From an uncultured Clostridia bacterium (lineage in GTDB: Bacteria; Bacillota; Clostridia; Christensenellales; UBA1242): DNA of 64,000 nt. The position numbers and the translations under genes were made by a program. The stretch's first letter is position 1. Every line of letters starts with the position of its first letter. The notes beneath the pieces were generated by a model. It had not been told where the DNA came from. It ran no database searches and saw nothing but the letters and a program-made list of their open reading frames with translations. Shown piece by piece: positions 13,477 to 56,576 of the stretch. Location of the stretch: the NCBI GenBank assembly GCA_944383415.1, contig CALWPK010000003.1, forward strand, positions 1 through 64,000. The letters are read 5' to 3'.

Positions 13477-15681
13477 ATGGATTTGATAAAAATTATTAGA
13501 GAAAACAAGTTGATCTATTTGAAATTGGATTCGCTTGCAAAGGAACTAGCAAAAATCACTGGCGAGGCAATAGCGGATCTAAAACTTCAGATCAATGATT
13601 TGATCCACGATGGCACGCTCTATTTGGATGGCGAAAACAAAATTTCAATCTCAGCAGACAAAGGCTACTTCAAAGCAAAGATCACGCTGAATCGCAAGGG
13701 CTATGGATTCGCAAGAGTGGATGGATACCCTGATTTTTTCGTGCCAGCATTTGCTATCAATGGAGCGTATGACGGGGATGATTGCTTGGTAGAGATTACA
13801 TCGAGGAAGAGCGATGACGAAATAGAGGGAAGGGTGGTGAAAGTCTTGCGTCACAACACCACACACATTGTAGGTACATATATAATTGGAAAAAGCAAAA
13901 GCGTGGTTTTCCCGGACGATGACAAATTGCCTCAAATTAGGATTTTGAAAAGCAATAGCAAGAACGCCAAGAACAATGAAAAAGTTTGGGTAGAATTGAA
14001 TGCAGAGACTTTAGATGCGAAAGAAGTCTCAGGAAAGATTGTCGAGATTTTAGGTCAGGCAAATACACCCAAGGCAGAACAATTGTCAATCATACGATCT
14101 TTCAAATTGATTGATCAATTCGATCCCGAAACTCTTAGGGAGGCACGTGCCATATCTCAAACTGTGGATAGGAATCAATATAAAAAACGAGTTGACTTTG
14201 CATCTCAACGTGTGATCACTATAGACGGCGAGGATGCTAGAGACTTTGACGACGCCATAGCGGTGGAGAGGTCAGATACGGGATACAAATTATTCGTCCA
14301 CATTGCAGATGTGTCTGAATATGTGAGGGAAAATTCGCATCTAGACAAAGAGGCGTTCAGACGCGGTACTAGTGTATATTTTTCCAACCAAGTGATACCA
14401 ATGTTACCAAAAGAACTATCAAATGGCGTTTGTTCGCTCAGCGAAGGGGTGGATAGATTGGTGCTATCTGTGGTGATAGATTTGAATGATGATTGCGAAG
14501 TGCTAGATAGCAAGATAGTCGAAGGCGTGATACATAGCCATCATAGAATGACGTATACCGAGATCAAAAACATTTTGGAGGGCGATCAACTTTTGATAGA
14601 AAAATATCAGGACGTGTATAATGATATTTTAATCTATCAAGAGATATCTAAGAAACTTCTAAAAAAACGTCACGATCGCGGAGAGATCAGAATGAATATA
14701 CCTGAGCCGTATATTTTGGAAAATGAGGTGGGCGAAATAGTTAGTATTGAAAAGCGAGTTCAGGATGAGGCGCATCAGATCATAGAGAGTCTGATGATCT
14801 TGACCAATGAATGCGTGGCAAAGAGATTCTTTGATCTTAAAATTCCGTTTGTCTATCGTGTGCACGAAAAGCCAGATAGCGAGAAAGTTTTGAGACTGTC
14901 CGAACTGTTGAAAAATATGGGAGTTGCGAATCAGTTGCAAATTGATGGTGACAAACCGATAAGTTATCAAAAAATAATTGAATCCATAAAGGATAATCCT
15001 AGCGAAACCACACTGACGAAACTGATCCTACGCTCAATGATGAAAGCACGATATACTCCGACTTGTTTAGGGCATTTCGGACTCGCTAGTGAATATTATT
15101 GCCATTTCACAAGCCCAATTAGAAGGTACCCAGATCTAATGATCCATAGGATAATCAAAAATTATTTGAACGGCGTACCAGTGCAAGATTTGAAATTGAA
15201 ATACACCTCAATTGTAACCCGTGCTAGTGAGCAATCTAGCGAAACTGAGAAAATTGCAGACGAGGCAGAAAGAGAGGTCGACGATTACAAGAAAGCAGTA
15301 TATATGACCCAGTTCATTGGAGAGCAGTTTGTGGGTACGATTTCTGGTGTGCAAGAATTTGGTATCTTCGTAGAACTAGACAATGGAATTGAAGGATTGG
15401 TTCGCCTAGAAGATCTGCCTAGTGATGAATATGTCTATGATGAAAGTGCAATGACCCTAAAAGGAAAGAAATATCATTATACCATTGGTGATAGCGTGCG
15501 CATAATCGTCGCCAATGCAAATACAAAACTAAGACAAGTCGATTTTGATTTGGTCGGAGTAGAGAAGAATACTTTAGGAAGTTTTGTAGTGAAAAAGAAA
15601 GATAAGAGTTCAAAAAAATTAAGTAAGAAATCTAGCAATATCTTGAAGATAAAAAACTCTAAACGAAAAAAGAAAAGATAA
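13477..15681 (+). CDS. rnr: Ribonuclease R
   Basis: A processive 3'-5' exoribonuclease of the RNase II/RNB family that degrades structured RNA, including defective mRNA released by tmRNA/SmpB. Over 734 aa: an N-terminal winged-helix region, cold-shock/OB domains (GYGFARVDGYPDFFVP), the RNB catalytic core with the Asp cluster in TIDGEDARDFDDAIAVE, and HFTSPIRRYPDLMIHR, then an S1 domain (GTISGVQEFGIFVELDNG) and a very basic tail ending KNSKRKKKR. The length is typical. smpB and ssrA lie downstream, consistent with a shared quality-control role. Confidence 0.97.
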   Translation: MDLIKIIRENKLIYLKLDSLAKELAKITGEAIADLKLQINDLIHDGTLYLDGENKISISADKGYFKAKITLNRKGYGFARVDGYPDFFVPAFAINGAYDGDDCLVEITSRKSDDEIEGRVVKVLRHNTTHIVGTYIIGKSKSVVFPDDDKLPQIRILKSNSKNAKNNEKVWVELNAETLDAKEVSGKIVEILGQANTPKAEQLSIIRSFKLIDQFDPETLREARAISQTVDRNQYKKRVDFASQRVITIDGEDARDFDDAIAVERSDTGYKLFVHIADVSEYVRENSHLDKEAFRRGTSVYFSNQVIPMLPKELSNGVCSLSEGVDRLVLSVVIDLNDDCEVLDSKIVEGVIHSHHRMTYTEIKNILEGDQLLIEKYQDVYNDILIYQEISKKLLKKRHDRGEIRMNIPEPYILENEVGEIVSIEKRVQDEAHQIIESLMILTNECVAKRFFDLKIPFVYRVHEKPDSEKVLRLSELLKNMGVANQLQIDGDKPISYQKIIESIKDNPSETTLTKLILRSMMKARYTPTCLGHFGLASEYYCHFTSPIRRYPDLMIHRIIKNYLNGVPVQDLKLKYTSIVTRASEQSSETEKIADEAEREVDDYKKAVYMTQFIGEQFVGTISGVQEFGIFVELDNGIEGLVRLEDLPSDEYVYDESAMTLKGKKYHYTIGDSVRIIVANANTKLRQVDFDLVGVEKNTLGSFVVKKKDKSSKKLSKKSSNILKIKNSKRKKKR

Positions 15682-52359: not shown

Positions 52360-52722
52360 ATGAAAAAAACACTAAAGTATGAGGACATAGTGGCACCTAA
52401 CTATTACGTTATGGGTAAGATGCGTGAATTGGGTATAACGGATCAATATACGGGGTTTTATTTTCTAGTGGATATTTTGGATCAATTGATTAATGAATCT
52501 AAAGTGGTGCGTTCATTTTCGCGCGAGGTGTACCCAATGCTCGCTAAGAAATATCATAAAAATGATTGTACAATTGAGCGTGATATTCGAAACATTATAA
52601 ATGTATTATGGGATTATCGACTAAAAAGCAAACTTTCATTATTTTGGCAAAAAAATGAAAAGCCAAGTTGCTGTGAATTTATCTATATTATTAAAAATTA
52701 TCTAGTTATGAACATTGCCTAA
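52360..52722 (+). CDS. Stand-alone Spo0A C-terminal-domain-like regulator 1
   Basis: A 120-aa protein that follows the Spo0A DNA-binding domain over nearly its full length: MRELGITDQYTGFYFLVDIL, YPMLAKKYHKNDCTIERDI (position of YPDIAKKFNTTASRVERAI), RNIINVLWDYR, and KPSCCEFIYIIKNYL (position of KPTNSEFIAMVADKL). No receiver domain is present, so it cannot be phosphorylated as Spo0A is. The start follows ACAAGGGGAGAAAA. Its promoter carries the TTTTGTACAAAA pair, and its 3' end overlaps that of the convergent regulator by 21 bases. Confidence 0.8.
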   Translation: MKKTLKYEDIVAPNYYVMGKMRELGITDQYTGFYFLVDILDQLINESKVVRSFSREVYPMLAKKYHKNDCTIERDIRNIINVLWDYRLKSKLSLFWQKNEKPSCCEFIYIIKNYLVMNIA

Positions 52723-53304: not shown

Positions 53305-53333
53305 TTGACAATTAATTTGTTATTATATACAAT
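53305..53333 (+). promoter_or_regulatory. Promoter of the second TasA-like gene
   Basis: TTGACA (53305-53310), 17 bp, TACAAT (53328-53333); AGGGGT precedes the ATG at 53353. Confidence 0.82.
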
Positions 53334-53352
53334 ACTTGTTATAGGGGTATCT

Positions 53353-54054
53353 ATGGTAAAAAATCGACTTAGCGGGCAGACTATCGCTATTATTATATTA
53401 TCTGTATTATTATTGTTGACTGCTTGTTTTGGTGGGGTATACGCATATTATAGCACCAATACAAGTAAGGTGTCTGGAAGAATTGTTATGGCGAACCTAA
53501 ATATTAATTTGCAGGCGGGGATAGGTGAGAGTGCTTCCAGTGAAATATTGGTATCAAATGGCGTATTTGTGCCTGGTCAACCATTAGAGAACACTCCACT
53601 TGTAGTGGTCAATGAATCTAACACTCCTATTTACCTTTCTATAATATACAAAGTAAATGCATCCAATATTGAGACTGGTGAACCTTTAGAAAATTACGAT
53701 GATACCAATCCATTGATAGATATTGGAATTGATGATGATAGTTTATGGTATGATTATTTATTTGTGACAACGGGCGAAGATGGACAAGAGGATAGATATA
53801 GGTGCCTGATCACAAAGACTCCTCAATATCCTACAGAAACCAATGAATATATTACCGTCATAGAAGAAAATGCTCTATCCATTCCAAGAACGTGGGGAGA
53901 CGAATTTCAGAATATGCAGATTAGTTTCTTGTTTCAAGCGTATGCTATTGGCTCAAATACATTCACTTTTTCAAGTGAAGATACTATAGATTTTAGATGT
54001 CAAGAGATTATGACTGCCATATACGAGGCGTATGAAGGGAAAATCAATATTTAA
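53353..54054 (+). CDS. TasA/camelysin-like secreted protein 2
   Basis: A 233-aa exported protein. The signal (LSGQTIAIIILSVLLLLTAC) runs into FGGVYAYYSTNTSKVSGRIV, the same GG-x-YAY(F/Y)-S/T junction as the protein at 29424. The mature domain includes VPGQPLENTPLVVVNESNTP and IYLSIIYKVNAS, the usual TasA-like beta pattern. ATG 53353 is chosen because ATAGGGGTATCT precedes it; the longer ORF start at 53305 is the promoter itself. It lies beside the Spo0A-C-like regulators, which in Bacillus-type logic would fit matrix control, but that is inference. Confidence 0.75.
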   Translation: MVKNRLSGQTIAIIILSVLLLLTACFGGVYAYYSTNTSKVSGRIVMANLNINLQAGIGESASSEILVSNGVFVPGQPLENTPLVVVNESNTPIYLSIIYKVNASNIETGEPLENYDDTNPLIDIGIDDDSLWYDYLFVTTGEDGQEDRYRCLITKTPQYPTETNEYITVIEENALSIPRTWGDEFQNMQISFLFQAYAIGSNTFTFSSEDTIDFRCQEIMTAIYEAYEGKINI

Positions 54055-54078
54055 TCCACATTTTTGTGGATTTTTTTA
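54053..54078 (+). terminator. Terminator of the second TasA-like gene
   Basis: AATCCACA-TTTTT-GTGGATT, then T6; it overlaps the stop codon. Confidence 0.9.
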
Positions 54079-54275: not shown

Positions 54276-54842
54276 ATGAGTAAAATTTGGATAATAATGA
54301 TAATATCCAGTCTATGTATGTTGGCAATTTTTTCTCCATCTGACGTTGTCGGCACGATGATGGAGGCATCAAAAATGGGGATCACGATGTGCATAGAATT
54401 TATTGGCATATATGCGGTGTGGATGGGGATAATGCAAGTAATGGATGATTGCCGTCTCAGTCACAAATTGTCAAAGATTTTGTCACGTCCAGTACAATAT
54501 ATTTTTGGCAAAACGGACGCAGAGACAGAGAAAAATATTTGCCTCAATATTGCCTCAAATATCATTGGAATAGGTAGCGCAGCCACTCCGTATGGCATAA
54601 AAGCAATGCAGGGATTAGACAAGGGGGACAAGCGTGCCACACGTGCTATGATAATGCTCGTAGTGATCAACTCTACAGGTATTCAACTATTGCCAACGAC
54701 AGTCATTGGTATGCGGGCAATGGCTGGAAGCGTGAGTCCTAGTTGCATCCTTTGGCCAACCATTGTGTCCACATTCTTGCCAACAATTTTAGGTATATTG
54801 TTAGTTGCGGTGATTTATAGAAGGCGGAAGAAAAATGGCTGA
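54276..54842 (+). CDS. spmA: Spore maturation protein A
   Basis: A 188-aa membrane protein of the nucleoside-recognition (Gate) family: SGIGTAATPYG-type motif in IIGIGSAATPYGIKAMQGLD and LVVINSTGIQLLPTTVIGMR. In Bacillus SpmA/SpmB affect spore core dehydration; homologues also occur in non-sporeformers. A TAGATT ends 6 bases before the ATG without a Shine-Dalgarno. It overlaps spmB by 8 bases. Confidence 0.92.
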   Translation: MSKIWIIMIISSLCMLAIFSPSDVVGTMMEASKMGITMCIEFIGIYAVWMGIMQVMDDCRLSHKLSKILSRPVQYIFGKTDAETEKNICLNIASNIIGIGSAATPYGIKAMQGLDKGDKRATRAMIMLVVINSTGIQLLPTTVIGMRAMAGSVSPSCILWPTIVSTFLPTILGILLVAVIYRRRKKNG

Positions 54843-55341
54843 TCTATTTATACCTATATTAATTGCATTTATTATGATATTTGCGCTCGTCAAGGGGGTG
54901 GACGCTTATTCGGCGTTTGTGAATGGTGCAAAGGGCGCACTTCCGCTTATGGCATCACTTATGCCTTATATCATTGCGATGTTCGTTGCGGTAGAGTTGT
55001 TTAGGAATAGCGGACTCAGCGGATATCTTTGCGATTTTTTGTCTCCCATATTTAAGGTCATCGGAATTCCTCCCGAAGTGTGCGAACTCACTCTGATCCG
55101 ACCATTTAGTTCGAACGCCGCTTATGTGCTTTTGCGAGACATTTTTTCAACATACGGCGTGGATAGTTATATAGGAAAATGCGCGAGCGTAATTATGGGC
55201 AGTAGTGATACGATATTCTATGTCAGCAGTATCTATTTCGCCTCCACGAGCGTGAAGAAAACTCTCCTCACCATCCCTATTGCATTAGTATGCAATGTGG
55301 CTTGTGCGATTTTGGCTTGTTTTTGCTGTAGATTTATTTGA
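54835..55341 (+). CDS. spmB: Spore maturation protein B
   Basis: A 168-aa membrane partner of SpmA: FVNGAKGALPLMASLMPYII, ELTLIRPFSSNAAYVLLRDI and the conserved MGSSDTIFYVSSIYFAS. It starts inside spmA with GGCGGAAG as ribosome-binding site, so the two are translationally coupled. The pair is presumed to form a membrane complex. Confidence 0.93.
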   Translation: MADLFIPILIAFIMIFALVKGVDAYSAFVNGAKGALPLMASLMPYIIAMFVAVELFRNSGLSGYLCDFLSPIFKVIGIPPEVCELTLIRPFSSNAAYVLLRDIFSTYGVDSYIGKCASVIMGSSDTIFYVSSIYFASTSVKKTLLTIPIALVCNVACAILACFCCRFI

Positions 55342-55352
55342 TATGAAAAAAC

Positions 55353-55387
55353 TTGATTTTTATTCAATTTTGATATATAATACGCGT
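55353..55387 (+). promoter_or_regulatory. Promoter of the 27-codon ORF
   Basis: TTGATT (55353-55358), 17 bp, TATAAT (55376-55381). The ATG at 55388 is exactly 7 bases after the -10. Confidence 0.8.
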
Positions 55388-55471
55388 ATGAAGATTTTGA
55401 AAATCATTTTGCTATTCATCATATTGGTGGTGGTGTTTAGCGTTTGCTATCAATGCGGGTTTATAGGTTAA
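55388..55471 (+). CDS. 27-aa hydrophobic peptide, leaderless, before a terminator
   Basis: MKILKIILLFIILVVVF, then SVCYQCGFIG. One membrane helix with a basic N-terminus and a CxxC near the C-terminus. It starts at the predicted transcription start and its stop codon is 2 bases before a hairpin-plus-T terminator; the metal exporter follows 40 bases after that, with a Shine-Dalgarno but no evident promoter of its own. Either a regulatory leader peptide whose translation decides read-through into the exporter, or a small membrane partner (CxxC could bind metal). Not recognised as a known family. Confidence 0.65.
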   Translation: MKILKIILLFIILVVVFSVCYQCGFIG

Positions 55472-55473
55472 TG

Positions 55474-55498
55474 TTCTTGCTATGCAAGAATTTTTATT
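55474..55498 (+). terminator. Terminator/attenuator before the metal exporter
   Basis: TTCTTGC (55474-55480)-TAT-GCAAGAA (55484-55490), then TTTTTATT. A ribosome at the stop codon of the 27-aa ORF would cover its left arm. Confidence 0.82.
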
Positions 55499-55535
55499 CA
55501 AAGTTTATTCAAAATAATTTCATATTAGGAGAACT

Positions 55536-56576
55536 ATGGAAGAGTATTGGCACGTGATATTGGAGGCTCTTATCGATACGGCAAAATTGTTGCCGATTCT
55601 TTTCATTGTGTATTATTTGATCGAATTGATTGAATTCAAGTATGCTATCAAATTTCAAAACAACAAACTTTTGAAGGGCAAAGCAAGTCCAGTGATAGGT
55701 GCAGTGATAGGATGTATTCCGCAGTGTGGCTTTTCTGTGGTGACTACAGATCTATTTACCAAGCGAGCAGTTTCAGTAGGGGCATTGATAGCAGTCTACA
55801 TTGCCACCAGCGATGAGGCGATACCTCTGATGATCTCAGAGCCGTCCAGCATTCCGTATTTATTAGCGTTGATTGGAGTGAAGGTCGTGTTCGCTATTGC
55901 CGTTGGATATCTTTCCATTTGGCTATACAATTTAATATTCAAGAGATCAAGAGCCGAAGCGGATAGCGAGCAAAGGTTAGAGAGCGAAAATCTTGACAGC
56001 GAACGAAATAATGAAGAAAAAACGATTAGAGCATCGCACCTTGAGAGTGAAGAGATAGATGAACCGAAAGCACATTCTCATATCCACGAGAATGAGGCTG
56101 AAAAAGAAAACGTTTCTCTCGCAACAGCCGAAAACAAGGTGGAGATGCACTCACACGGAGGGTGTTGCCATCATCACGTTAGGAGCAAATCATTTGATTG
56201 GCTACATCCGCTGTTGCATTGCTTGAAGATTAGTGCATTCATTTTGATCATCAACATCATCTTCGGCTGTATCACTCATATATGGATAGGCGAAGAGGCG
56301 TTGACGAATTTTTTGTCTCAAAGTCTGTATCTACAGCCATTGCTAGCAGTAGTAATAGGTCTAATCCCAAACTGTGCATCAAGCGTAGTCTTGACGCAAC
56401 TGTTTTTGATGGGAGGACTCTCATTTGGGGCACTGGTGGCAGGGCTGTCTGTCAATGCTGGTTTAGGTTTGATCATTTTGATCAAACAAAACAAGAATTG
56501 GAAAGAAAATCTCTTCATTTTCATTATGCTCATTGTACCTAGTTTGATTTTGGGTTACGCTCTGAACTTTATCTAA
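55536..56576 (+). CDS. Putative 10-TM heavy-metal exporter (ArsP_2/putative Mn transporter family)
   Basis: A 346-aa membrane protein with two homologous halves. Each has the same re-entrant motif: GAVIGCIPQCGFSVVTTDLF, TKRAVSVGALIA in the first and VIGLIPNCASSVVLTQLFLM, GGLSFGALVAG in the second. The halves are joined by a hydrophilic loop (about 145-225) with many acidic residues and a His/Cys cluster (HSHIHENE, MHSHGGCCHHHV) that looks metal-binding. This matches the family annotated as putative 10TM heavy-metal exporter or manganese transporter; the metal is not proven. The start follows TTAGGAGAACT. Confidence 0.83.
   Translation: MEEYWHVILEALIDTAKLLPILFIVYYLIELIEFKYAIKFQNNKLLKGKASPVIGAVIGCIPQCGFSVVTTDLFTKRAVSVGALIAVYIATSDEAIPLMISEPSSIPYLLALIGVKVVFAIAVGYLSIWLYNLIFKRSRAEADSEQRLESENLDSERNNEEKTIRASHLESEEIDEPKAHSHIHENEAEKENVSLATAENKVEMHSHGGCCHHHVRSKSFDWLHPLLHCLKISAFILIINIIFGCITHIWIGEEALTNFLSQSLYLQPLLAVVIGLIPNCASSVVLTQLFLMGGLSFGALVAGLSVNAGLGLIILIKQNKNWKENLFIFIMLIVPSLILGYALNFI

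Follow-up and report, generated by a model that had tools for sequence, protein, structure and literature searches.

A conserved 27-codon gene for a predicted membrane microprotein upstream of an ArsP_2-type exporter in a Clostridia genus

AcrZ, KdpF and CydX are short single-pass proteins that are encoded near a large membrane protein or act on one. MifM, TnaC, SecM and MgtL are leader peptides that work by stalling or attenuation. A pairing of a small protein, MntS, with the manganese exporter MntP is outlined for Escherichia coli (PMC4361602). The locus reported here, from an uncultured Clostridia bacterium, has a 27-codon ORF for a predicted single-helix membrane microprotein directly ahead of an exporter gene, and would resemble MntS/MntP in having a small protein whose function is linked to a metal exporter. 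MntS, however, is unlinked to mntP, longer than the 27-aa microprotein and regulated by MntR, whereas our ORF appears to be cotranscribed with an exporter of another family (ArsP_2). AcrZ, KdpF and CydX are alike in being short single-pass proteins near a large membrane protein, but their partners belong to other families and our microprotein is restricted to one genus. The leader peptides share with it the order of a short ORF, an RNA hairpin and a membrane-protein gene; in contrast to them, the microprotein lacks the hairpin in 14 of 23 exporter-linked copies and also occurs without a linked exporter, and the exporter occurs without the microprotein. Searching the literature on Onthoplasma, ArsP, leaderless genes, runaway transcription, MntS/MntP, SpmA/SpmB and leader peptides, we found no description of this microprotein. 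It would represent a family of tiny membrane proteins not recorded before, in a size range usually skipped by gene finders, that is kept in most species of a genome-reduced gut genus beside membrane-transport or tRNA genes.

Layout of the locus and leaderless starts

The window, that is, the whole stretch of DNA analysed, comprises 64,000 nt (positions 1 to 64,000 of contig CALWPK010000003.1, assembly GCA_944383415.1). Its host genome (1.09 Mb, Christensenellales) is related to Ca. Onthoplasma, and NCBI places the genus in Christensenellales. An article on reduced gut genomes lists Onthoplasma under the family UBA1242 and mentions sporulation genes in UBA1242 (PMC12306168). The locus contains the following features:

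54276..54842, + strand: SpmA-like "Gate" protein (family search)
54835..55341, + strand: SpmB-like "Gate" (nucleoside recognition) protein, the upstream neighbour (family search, gene neighbourhood)
55353..55381, + strand: promoter with -35 box TTGATT (55353-55358), 17-nt spacer and -10 box TATAAT (55376-55381) (sequence reading, scan)
55388..55471, + strand: leaderless ORF of 27 codons plus TAA, predicted single-helix membrane microprotein MKILKIILLFIILVVVFSVCYQCGFIG (reading, conservation, purifying selection)
55474..55495, + strand: intrinsic-terminator-like hairpin TTCTTGC-TAT-GCAAGAA (55474-55490) followed by T5 (55491-55495) (reading, scan)
55527..55531, + strand: Shine-Dalgarno sequence AGGAG of the exporter (direct reading)
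55536..56576, + strand: ArsP_2 / NF037962 exporter of 346 aa with a His-rich loop (HSHIHE...HSHGGCCHHH) (family searches)

Direct reading confirmed the whole layout given in the original prediction (TTGATT-17-TATAAT-6-ATG, the 27-codon membrane ORF, a 2-nt gap, the hairpin with T5, the Shine-Dalgarno sequence and the exporter). The ATG lies at 55388, 6 nt past the -10 box, and 2 nt separate the TAA (55469-55471) from the hairpin stem. The promoter scores 10/12 in a promoter scan, and the scan found no promoter-like site between the hairpin and the exporter ATG at 55536, including 55498-55535, in agreement with the earlier claim that the exporter has no second promoter. The sole other nearby promoter-like site on the + strand lies inside the ORF (55397-55425) and scores 9/12, a level common by chance. 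Microprotein and exporter thus stand in single-transcript order. The promoter geometry recurs among relatives: by script, 20 of the 23 exporter-linked copies have a -10-like box whose end lies 5–7 nt ahead of the ATG, and the remaining three have overlapping candidate -10 boxes, one of which, by eye, is at 6 nt.

The exporter is of the ArsP_2 type by family score (PF11449, 95.1 bits, cut-off 32.5) and matches NF037962, "arsenic efflux protein" (263.7 bits, cut-off 100). The two Gate proteins (54276..54842 and 54835..55341) we name SpmA- and SpmB-like from their tandem arrangement; the second had no NCBIfam match above cut-off. Further upstream on the + strand are a 120-aa protein with a stand-alone Spo0A C-terminal DNA-binding domain and no receiver domain (52360-52722, 72.4 bits) and a 249-aa ORF without a family match (53305-54072), whose own terminator hairpin contains the end of the ORF.

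Leaderless starts extend beyond the microprotein gene. We scanned for extended -10 boxes (TGNTANNAT, where both N stand for A, C or T) ahead of possible start codons in the 47 ORFs of the window that reach 100 aa; these boxes peaked exactly 6 nt before the start, with 6 cases compared with 0–3 at any other distance. Other genomes of the genus also show leaderless examples, presumably genes for TrpS, a RarA-type ATPase and exonuclease III. As judged from sequence, genes of this Clostridia lineage regularly start leaderless, and start-site or small-gene annotation that relies on Shine-Dalgarno sequences will therefore miss genes here. To our knowledge, frequent leaderless genes are unusual for Clostridia. 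The leaderless-type starts in the window are at 13477, 16462, 17950, 26940, 31899 and 35368 of the scanned strand (17950 and 31899 being minus-strand coordinates).

The microprotein family and selection on its 27 codons

The exporter was searched in 60 relatives, and the genus set consisted of 34 genomes. A microprotein pattern run on 33 stretches around exporters gave the microprotein in 23 genomes, each time directly upstream of the exporter. We aligned 21 distinct sequences, the three sister-clade sequences described below not being among them, into a profile (A1) that recovered the same 23 genomes in whole-genome searches (E 7.7e-17 to 2.5e-11); because these sequences were already in the profile, the matches report location and copy number and are not an independent discovery. 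Weaker A1 matches in G022 (E 0.0012), G027 (E 0.0038) and G003 (E 0.28) proved to be relatives, peptides of 24 residues that start 6–9 nt past a -10-like box (by eye). With the sister-clade sequences added (profile A2, 24 rows, holding sequences of all 26 carrier genomes), 26 of the 34 genus genomes carried the family with E values no higher than 3.3e-5, and the next match was at 0.024. There is one confident copy per genome, at a fixed location in most genomes.

An order-level search of 396 genomes gave ten that passed E 0.005. Three are known members of the genus, and the other seven matches were judged false, being short matches inside open frames of 372–1249 aa. By these sequence searches the family is restricted to the genus: the believable matches among the 396 genomes were genus members only. 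Searches of viral contigs and of plasmids revealed no relative, and 42 loci of more distant exporters showed no convincing similar short ORF ahead of the exporter. The microprotein matched no Pfam or NCBIfam family above cut-off; a weak hydrophobic match of residues 1–21 to PF13153 (DUF3985; 16.5 bits, below the cut-off of 25; E 0.0087) does not amount to membership. Among solved structures, no match to the microprotein profile was found, and the exporter gave only a chance-level match.

The 27 codons are a genuine gene under strong purifying selection. Summed over nine genome pairs, pS was 0.733 and pN 0.107, in line with the coding constraint for which the original prediction had proposed a Ka/Ks test; with pS nearly saturated, the resulting ratio of 0.04 is to be read only as far below one. 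pN was clearly below pS in eight of the nine pairs, the weak-constraint pair being G007/G019 (pS 0.44, pN 0.31). In 19 copies of exactly 84 nt, each codon position comprised 513 letters, of which 101 at the first, 45 at the second and 214 at the third position differed from the majority. Four pairs that lack the hairpin (G010/G020, G009/G012, G006/G024 and G021/G031) had pN of 0.06–0.10 compared with pS of 0.69–1.02, and the protein is therefore under selection where no attenuator exists. Within the sister clade, pS was 0.69 and pN 0.085 for G022/G027, and the two pairs involving G003 gave pS of 0.41–0.60 and pN of about 0.24. This constraint suggests that the microprotein is translated.

Multiple alignment of the A1 sequences showed invariant M1, K2 and second Cys, and nearly invariant K5, F10, V14, V16, Y21, Q22 and G24. 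The conserved residues thus cover the N-terminal lysines and the helix, beyond the C-terminal end alone. Metal sensing through the CxxC motif, which had been suggested for the peptide, was not supported: the first Cys varies within the 21 A1 sequences, the second being invariant there, and the whole QCG tail is missing from the sister-clade peptides, so a CxxC metal site is not a feature of the family. A lipoprotein signal was also considered, but the fit to a lipobox was poor, with Q or S preceding the conserved Cys and only 2–5 residues after it (by eye).

Neighbouring genes and the hairpin

The exporter was found in 31 of the 34 genus genomes and is missing in G003, G014 and G026. The 23 exporter-linked microprotein copies lie 4–201 nt upstream of it, and 19 of them are 40–152 nt behind spmB, the other four (G007, G009, G021 and G024) being 490–837 nt behind it. 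In a tree of SpmA and SpmB, G003, G022 and G027 group together (bootstrap 93), and rooting on the outgroups G034 and G042 makes them sister to the rest of the genus (split 100). None of the three has an exporter adjacent to the microprotein. Two of them, G003 and G027, share with our locus the position of the SpmB-like gene upstream of the ORF: the microprotein is directly behind spmB and is followed by tRNA-Ser, which also follows it in G022 (tRNAs by eye). G003 has no detectable exporter, which may be an assembly gap because this genome is an 88% complete draft. As one clade keeps the microprotein with spmB and the other keeps it with the exporter, linkage alone names no partner.

The family is missing in eight of the 34 genus genomes, and this repeated absence indicates that its function is dispensable or replaceable. 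G014 and G026 have no microprotein, spmB or exporter, and G001 has the microprotein only as a broken-looking remnant. In the five other genomes without it (G011, G017, G018, G032 and G033), a promoter lies directly ahead of the exporter (by eye). For example, G033 has a TTGATTTTTT...TATAAT promoter similar to that of the microprotein directly before the exporter, and the exporter of G032 is itself a leaderless gene. The exporter can thus do without the microprotein, since it has its own promoter where the microprotein is missing. Between microprotein and exporter, G012 (L042) and G009 (L052) have a repeat-like stretch resembling TTCTTCACTCAC..GTTCAGAATGACA, perhaps a dispersed repeat.

The order of ORF, hairpin and exporter, for which the original prediction had proposed a search in relatives, was recovered in part: ORF and exporter occur together in 23 genomes, whereas the TTCTTGC/GCAAGAA stem follows in only nine of them (G000, G004, G005, G008, G023, G025, G028, G029 and G030). 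In this genome order the stem begins 2, 2, 3, 2, 3, 2, 2, 8 and 2 nt past the stop codon; this distance is steady while that from hairpin to exporter ranges from 26 to 181 nt, and the hairpin therefore belongs to the 3' end of the microprotein gene. Loops are 3 to 5 nt and predicted energies -7.8 to -14.7 kcal/mol in the nine carriers. A stable stem-loop and a T run are present in the window, and since the stem has only 3 G-C pairs and -7.8 kcal/mol, this putative terminator is possibly leaky. Seven of the 14 hairpin-less copies (G002, G006, G007, G010, G015, G019 and G020) have the exporter start 4–23 nt past the stop codon. A hairpin without the ORF was not seen: the intergenic regions of G001, G011, G017, G018, G032 and G033 are without it, as are the stretches ahead of the G022, G027 and G034 exporters.

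The window contains the exact motif just once (shuffles predict 0 occurrences). An exact-pattern search of 34 genomes, comprising 21 of the genus (its own included) and 13 others, found it in four, always at the microprotein locus; five of the nine hairpin carriers are outside this set. Within these genomes, this confinement speaks against a generic genome-wide terminator. On the SpmA+SpmB tree the hairpin carriers do not form one clade, and we claim no number of hairpin losses or gains because the inner branches are poorly supported.

Possible roles of the microprotein

The observations are best explained, in our judgement quite probably, by a genus-restricted single-helix membrane microprotein that acts in trans and is usually co-transcribed with the exporter, a terminator trimming read-through in one subset. 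Its own promoter would yield a leaderless mRNA, and most often the microprotein would head a two-gene operon whose second cistron encodes an ArsP_2-type exporter. The predicted topology is a single pass with the lysine-bearing N-terminus inside and a short Cys-bearing tail outside. In the hairpin subset, which includes this species, most transcripts would end after the stop codon and only read-through would reach the exporter, giving a high ratio of peptide to exporter. In the membrane, the microprotein would most plausibly assist or modulate a membrane protein encoded nearby, either the exporter or the upstream Gate-domain pair. The exporter is a tentative choice of partner; the SpmA/SpmB pair, or a general membrane role, is possible and somewhat less favoured, and roles other than these take up the remainder. 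An exporter-specific role in cis is still allowed in the A1-type clade because all 23 copies are 4–201 nt upstream of the exporter. If the microprotein modulates the exporter, it would offer a compact model for how a single helix regulates metal efflux.

The original prediction had preferred a regulatory leader peptide, in which translation or stalling on the 27 codons, governed by metal or membrane state, controls termination at the hairpin before the exporter. Several observations are in its favour: the order of promoter, ORF, hairpin and exporter with no second promoter, the stem sequence kept in nine genomes with the exact motif confined to this locus among the 21 genus genomes searched, and a hairpin never seen without the ORF. 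However, we consider it unlikely. Most exporter-linked copies have no hairpin, half of these with the exporter almost directly past the stop codon; three copies (G003, G022 and G027) have no exporter beside them; where the microprotein is missing, a promoter immediately precedes the exporter; and constraint persists without the hairpin and spans the N-terminal lysines and helix, not just a C-terminal stall motif. A single-sequence fold also showed no competing antiterminator. The 2-nt gap had been taken as a sign that a ribosome at the stop codon blocks the hairpin. Among window ORFs of at least 80 aa, ten end with a terminator-like hairpin in a simple scan, at stop-to-stem distances of 14, 18, 5, 2, -9, 6, 16, 5, -11 and -2 nt, so that seven of ten are at 6 nt or less. 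In Bacillus subtilis, too, terminators sit a few nt past stop codons, which is taken in a review as transcription outrunning ribosomes (PMC7858274). Because such spacing is ordinary here and in B. subtilis, it is no evidence for ribosome-gated attenuation. The fallback of the original prediction, a new small partner protein, proved the better-supported half, the gene being conserved, constrained and independent of both hairpin and exporter linkage.

Two other explanations fare worse. Size, hydrophobicity and a lysine-bearing N-terminus are like those of type I toxins, membrane-active peptides silenced by an antisense RNA, but such an identity is very unlikely given one confident copy per genome at a location fixed in most, no relative in the viral contigs or plasmids searched, third codon positions that are free to vary, and a consensus-like promoter with a leaderless start that suggests constitutive expression. 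Chance hydrophobic ORFs are common in AT-rich DNA, and the ORF might then be a by-product of an AT-rich 5' untranslated region in which only promoter and hairpin matter. This is hardly credible: it is refuted by protein-level conservation, by third-position variation in the 19 full-length copies and by a family found in 26 genomes, and the microprotein persists without hairpin or exporter.

RNA signals ahead of the exporter were also considered. At the locus, Rfam searches produced nothing close to the gathering score, and at 17 related loci nothing that reached it, which speaks against a riboswitch ahead of the exporter. In the single-sequence fold, bases at the 5' end of the mRNA are able to pair with those of the spacer that precedes the exporter Shine-Dalgarno sequence. 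For six related genomes (G000, G004, G005, G025, G028 and G030) the true assignment of 5' ends to spacers was equalled or beaten by 1 of 719 others; dinucleotide shuffles gave 0.014–0.29 per genome, and other windows of equal length sometimes pair as well or better. The other hairpin genomes, G008, G029 and G023, showed no such pairing. This pairing was noticed after the fact, and we treat it as a lead only. It could belong to an either-or switch, in which terminated transcripts make only the microprotein and read-through transcripts hide the leaderless start by spacer pairing and make mainly the exporter, with inverse output and a microprotein that restrains the exporter; we regard this as quite improbable.

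A different 5' hairpin, its stem being TGCACC/GGTGCA or AGCACC/GGTGCT and its loop differing in length, was observed at more distant ArsP_2 exporters, immediately ahead of the Shine-Dalgarno sequence and within about 60 nt of the start (L090, L091, L095, L096, L101, L114, L115, L122, L124, L126 and L144). An Rfam search of four of these 11 loci gave no match, and the hairpin could be an uncatalogued regulatory RNA or an operator.
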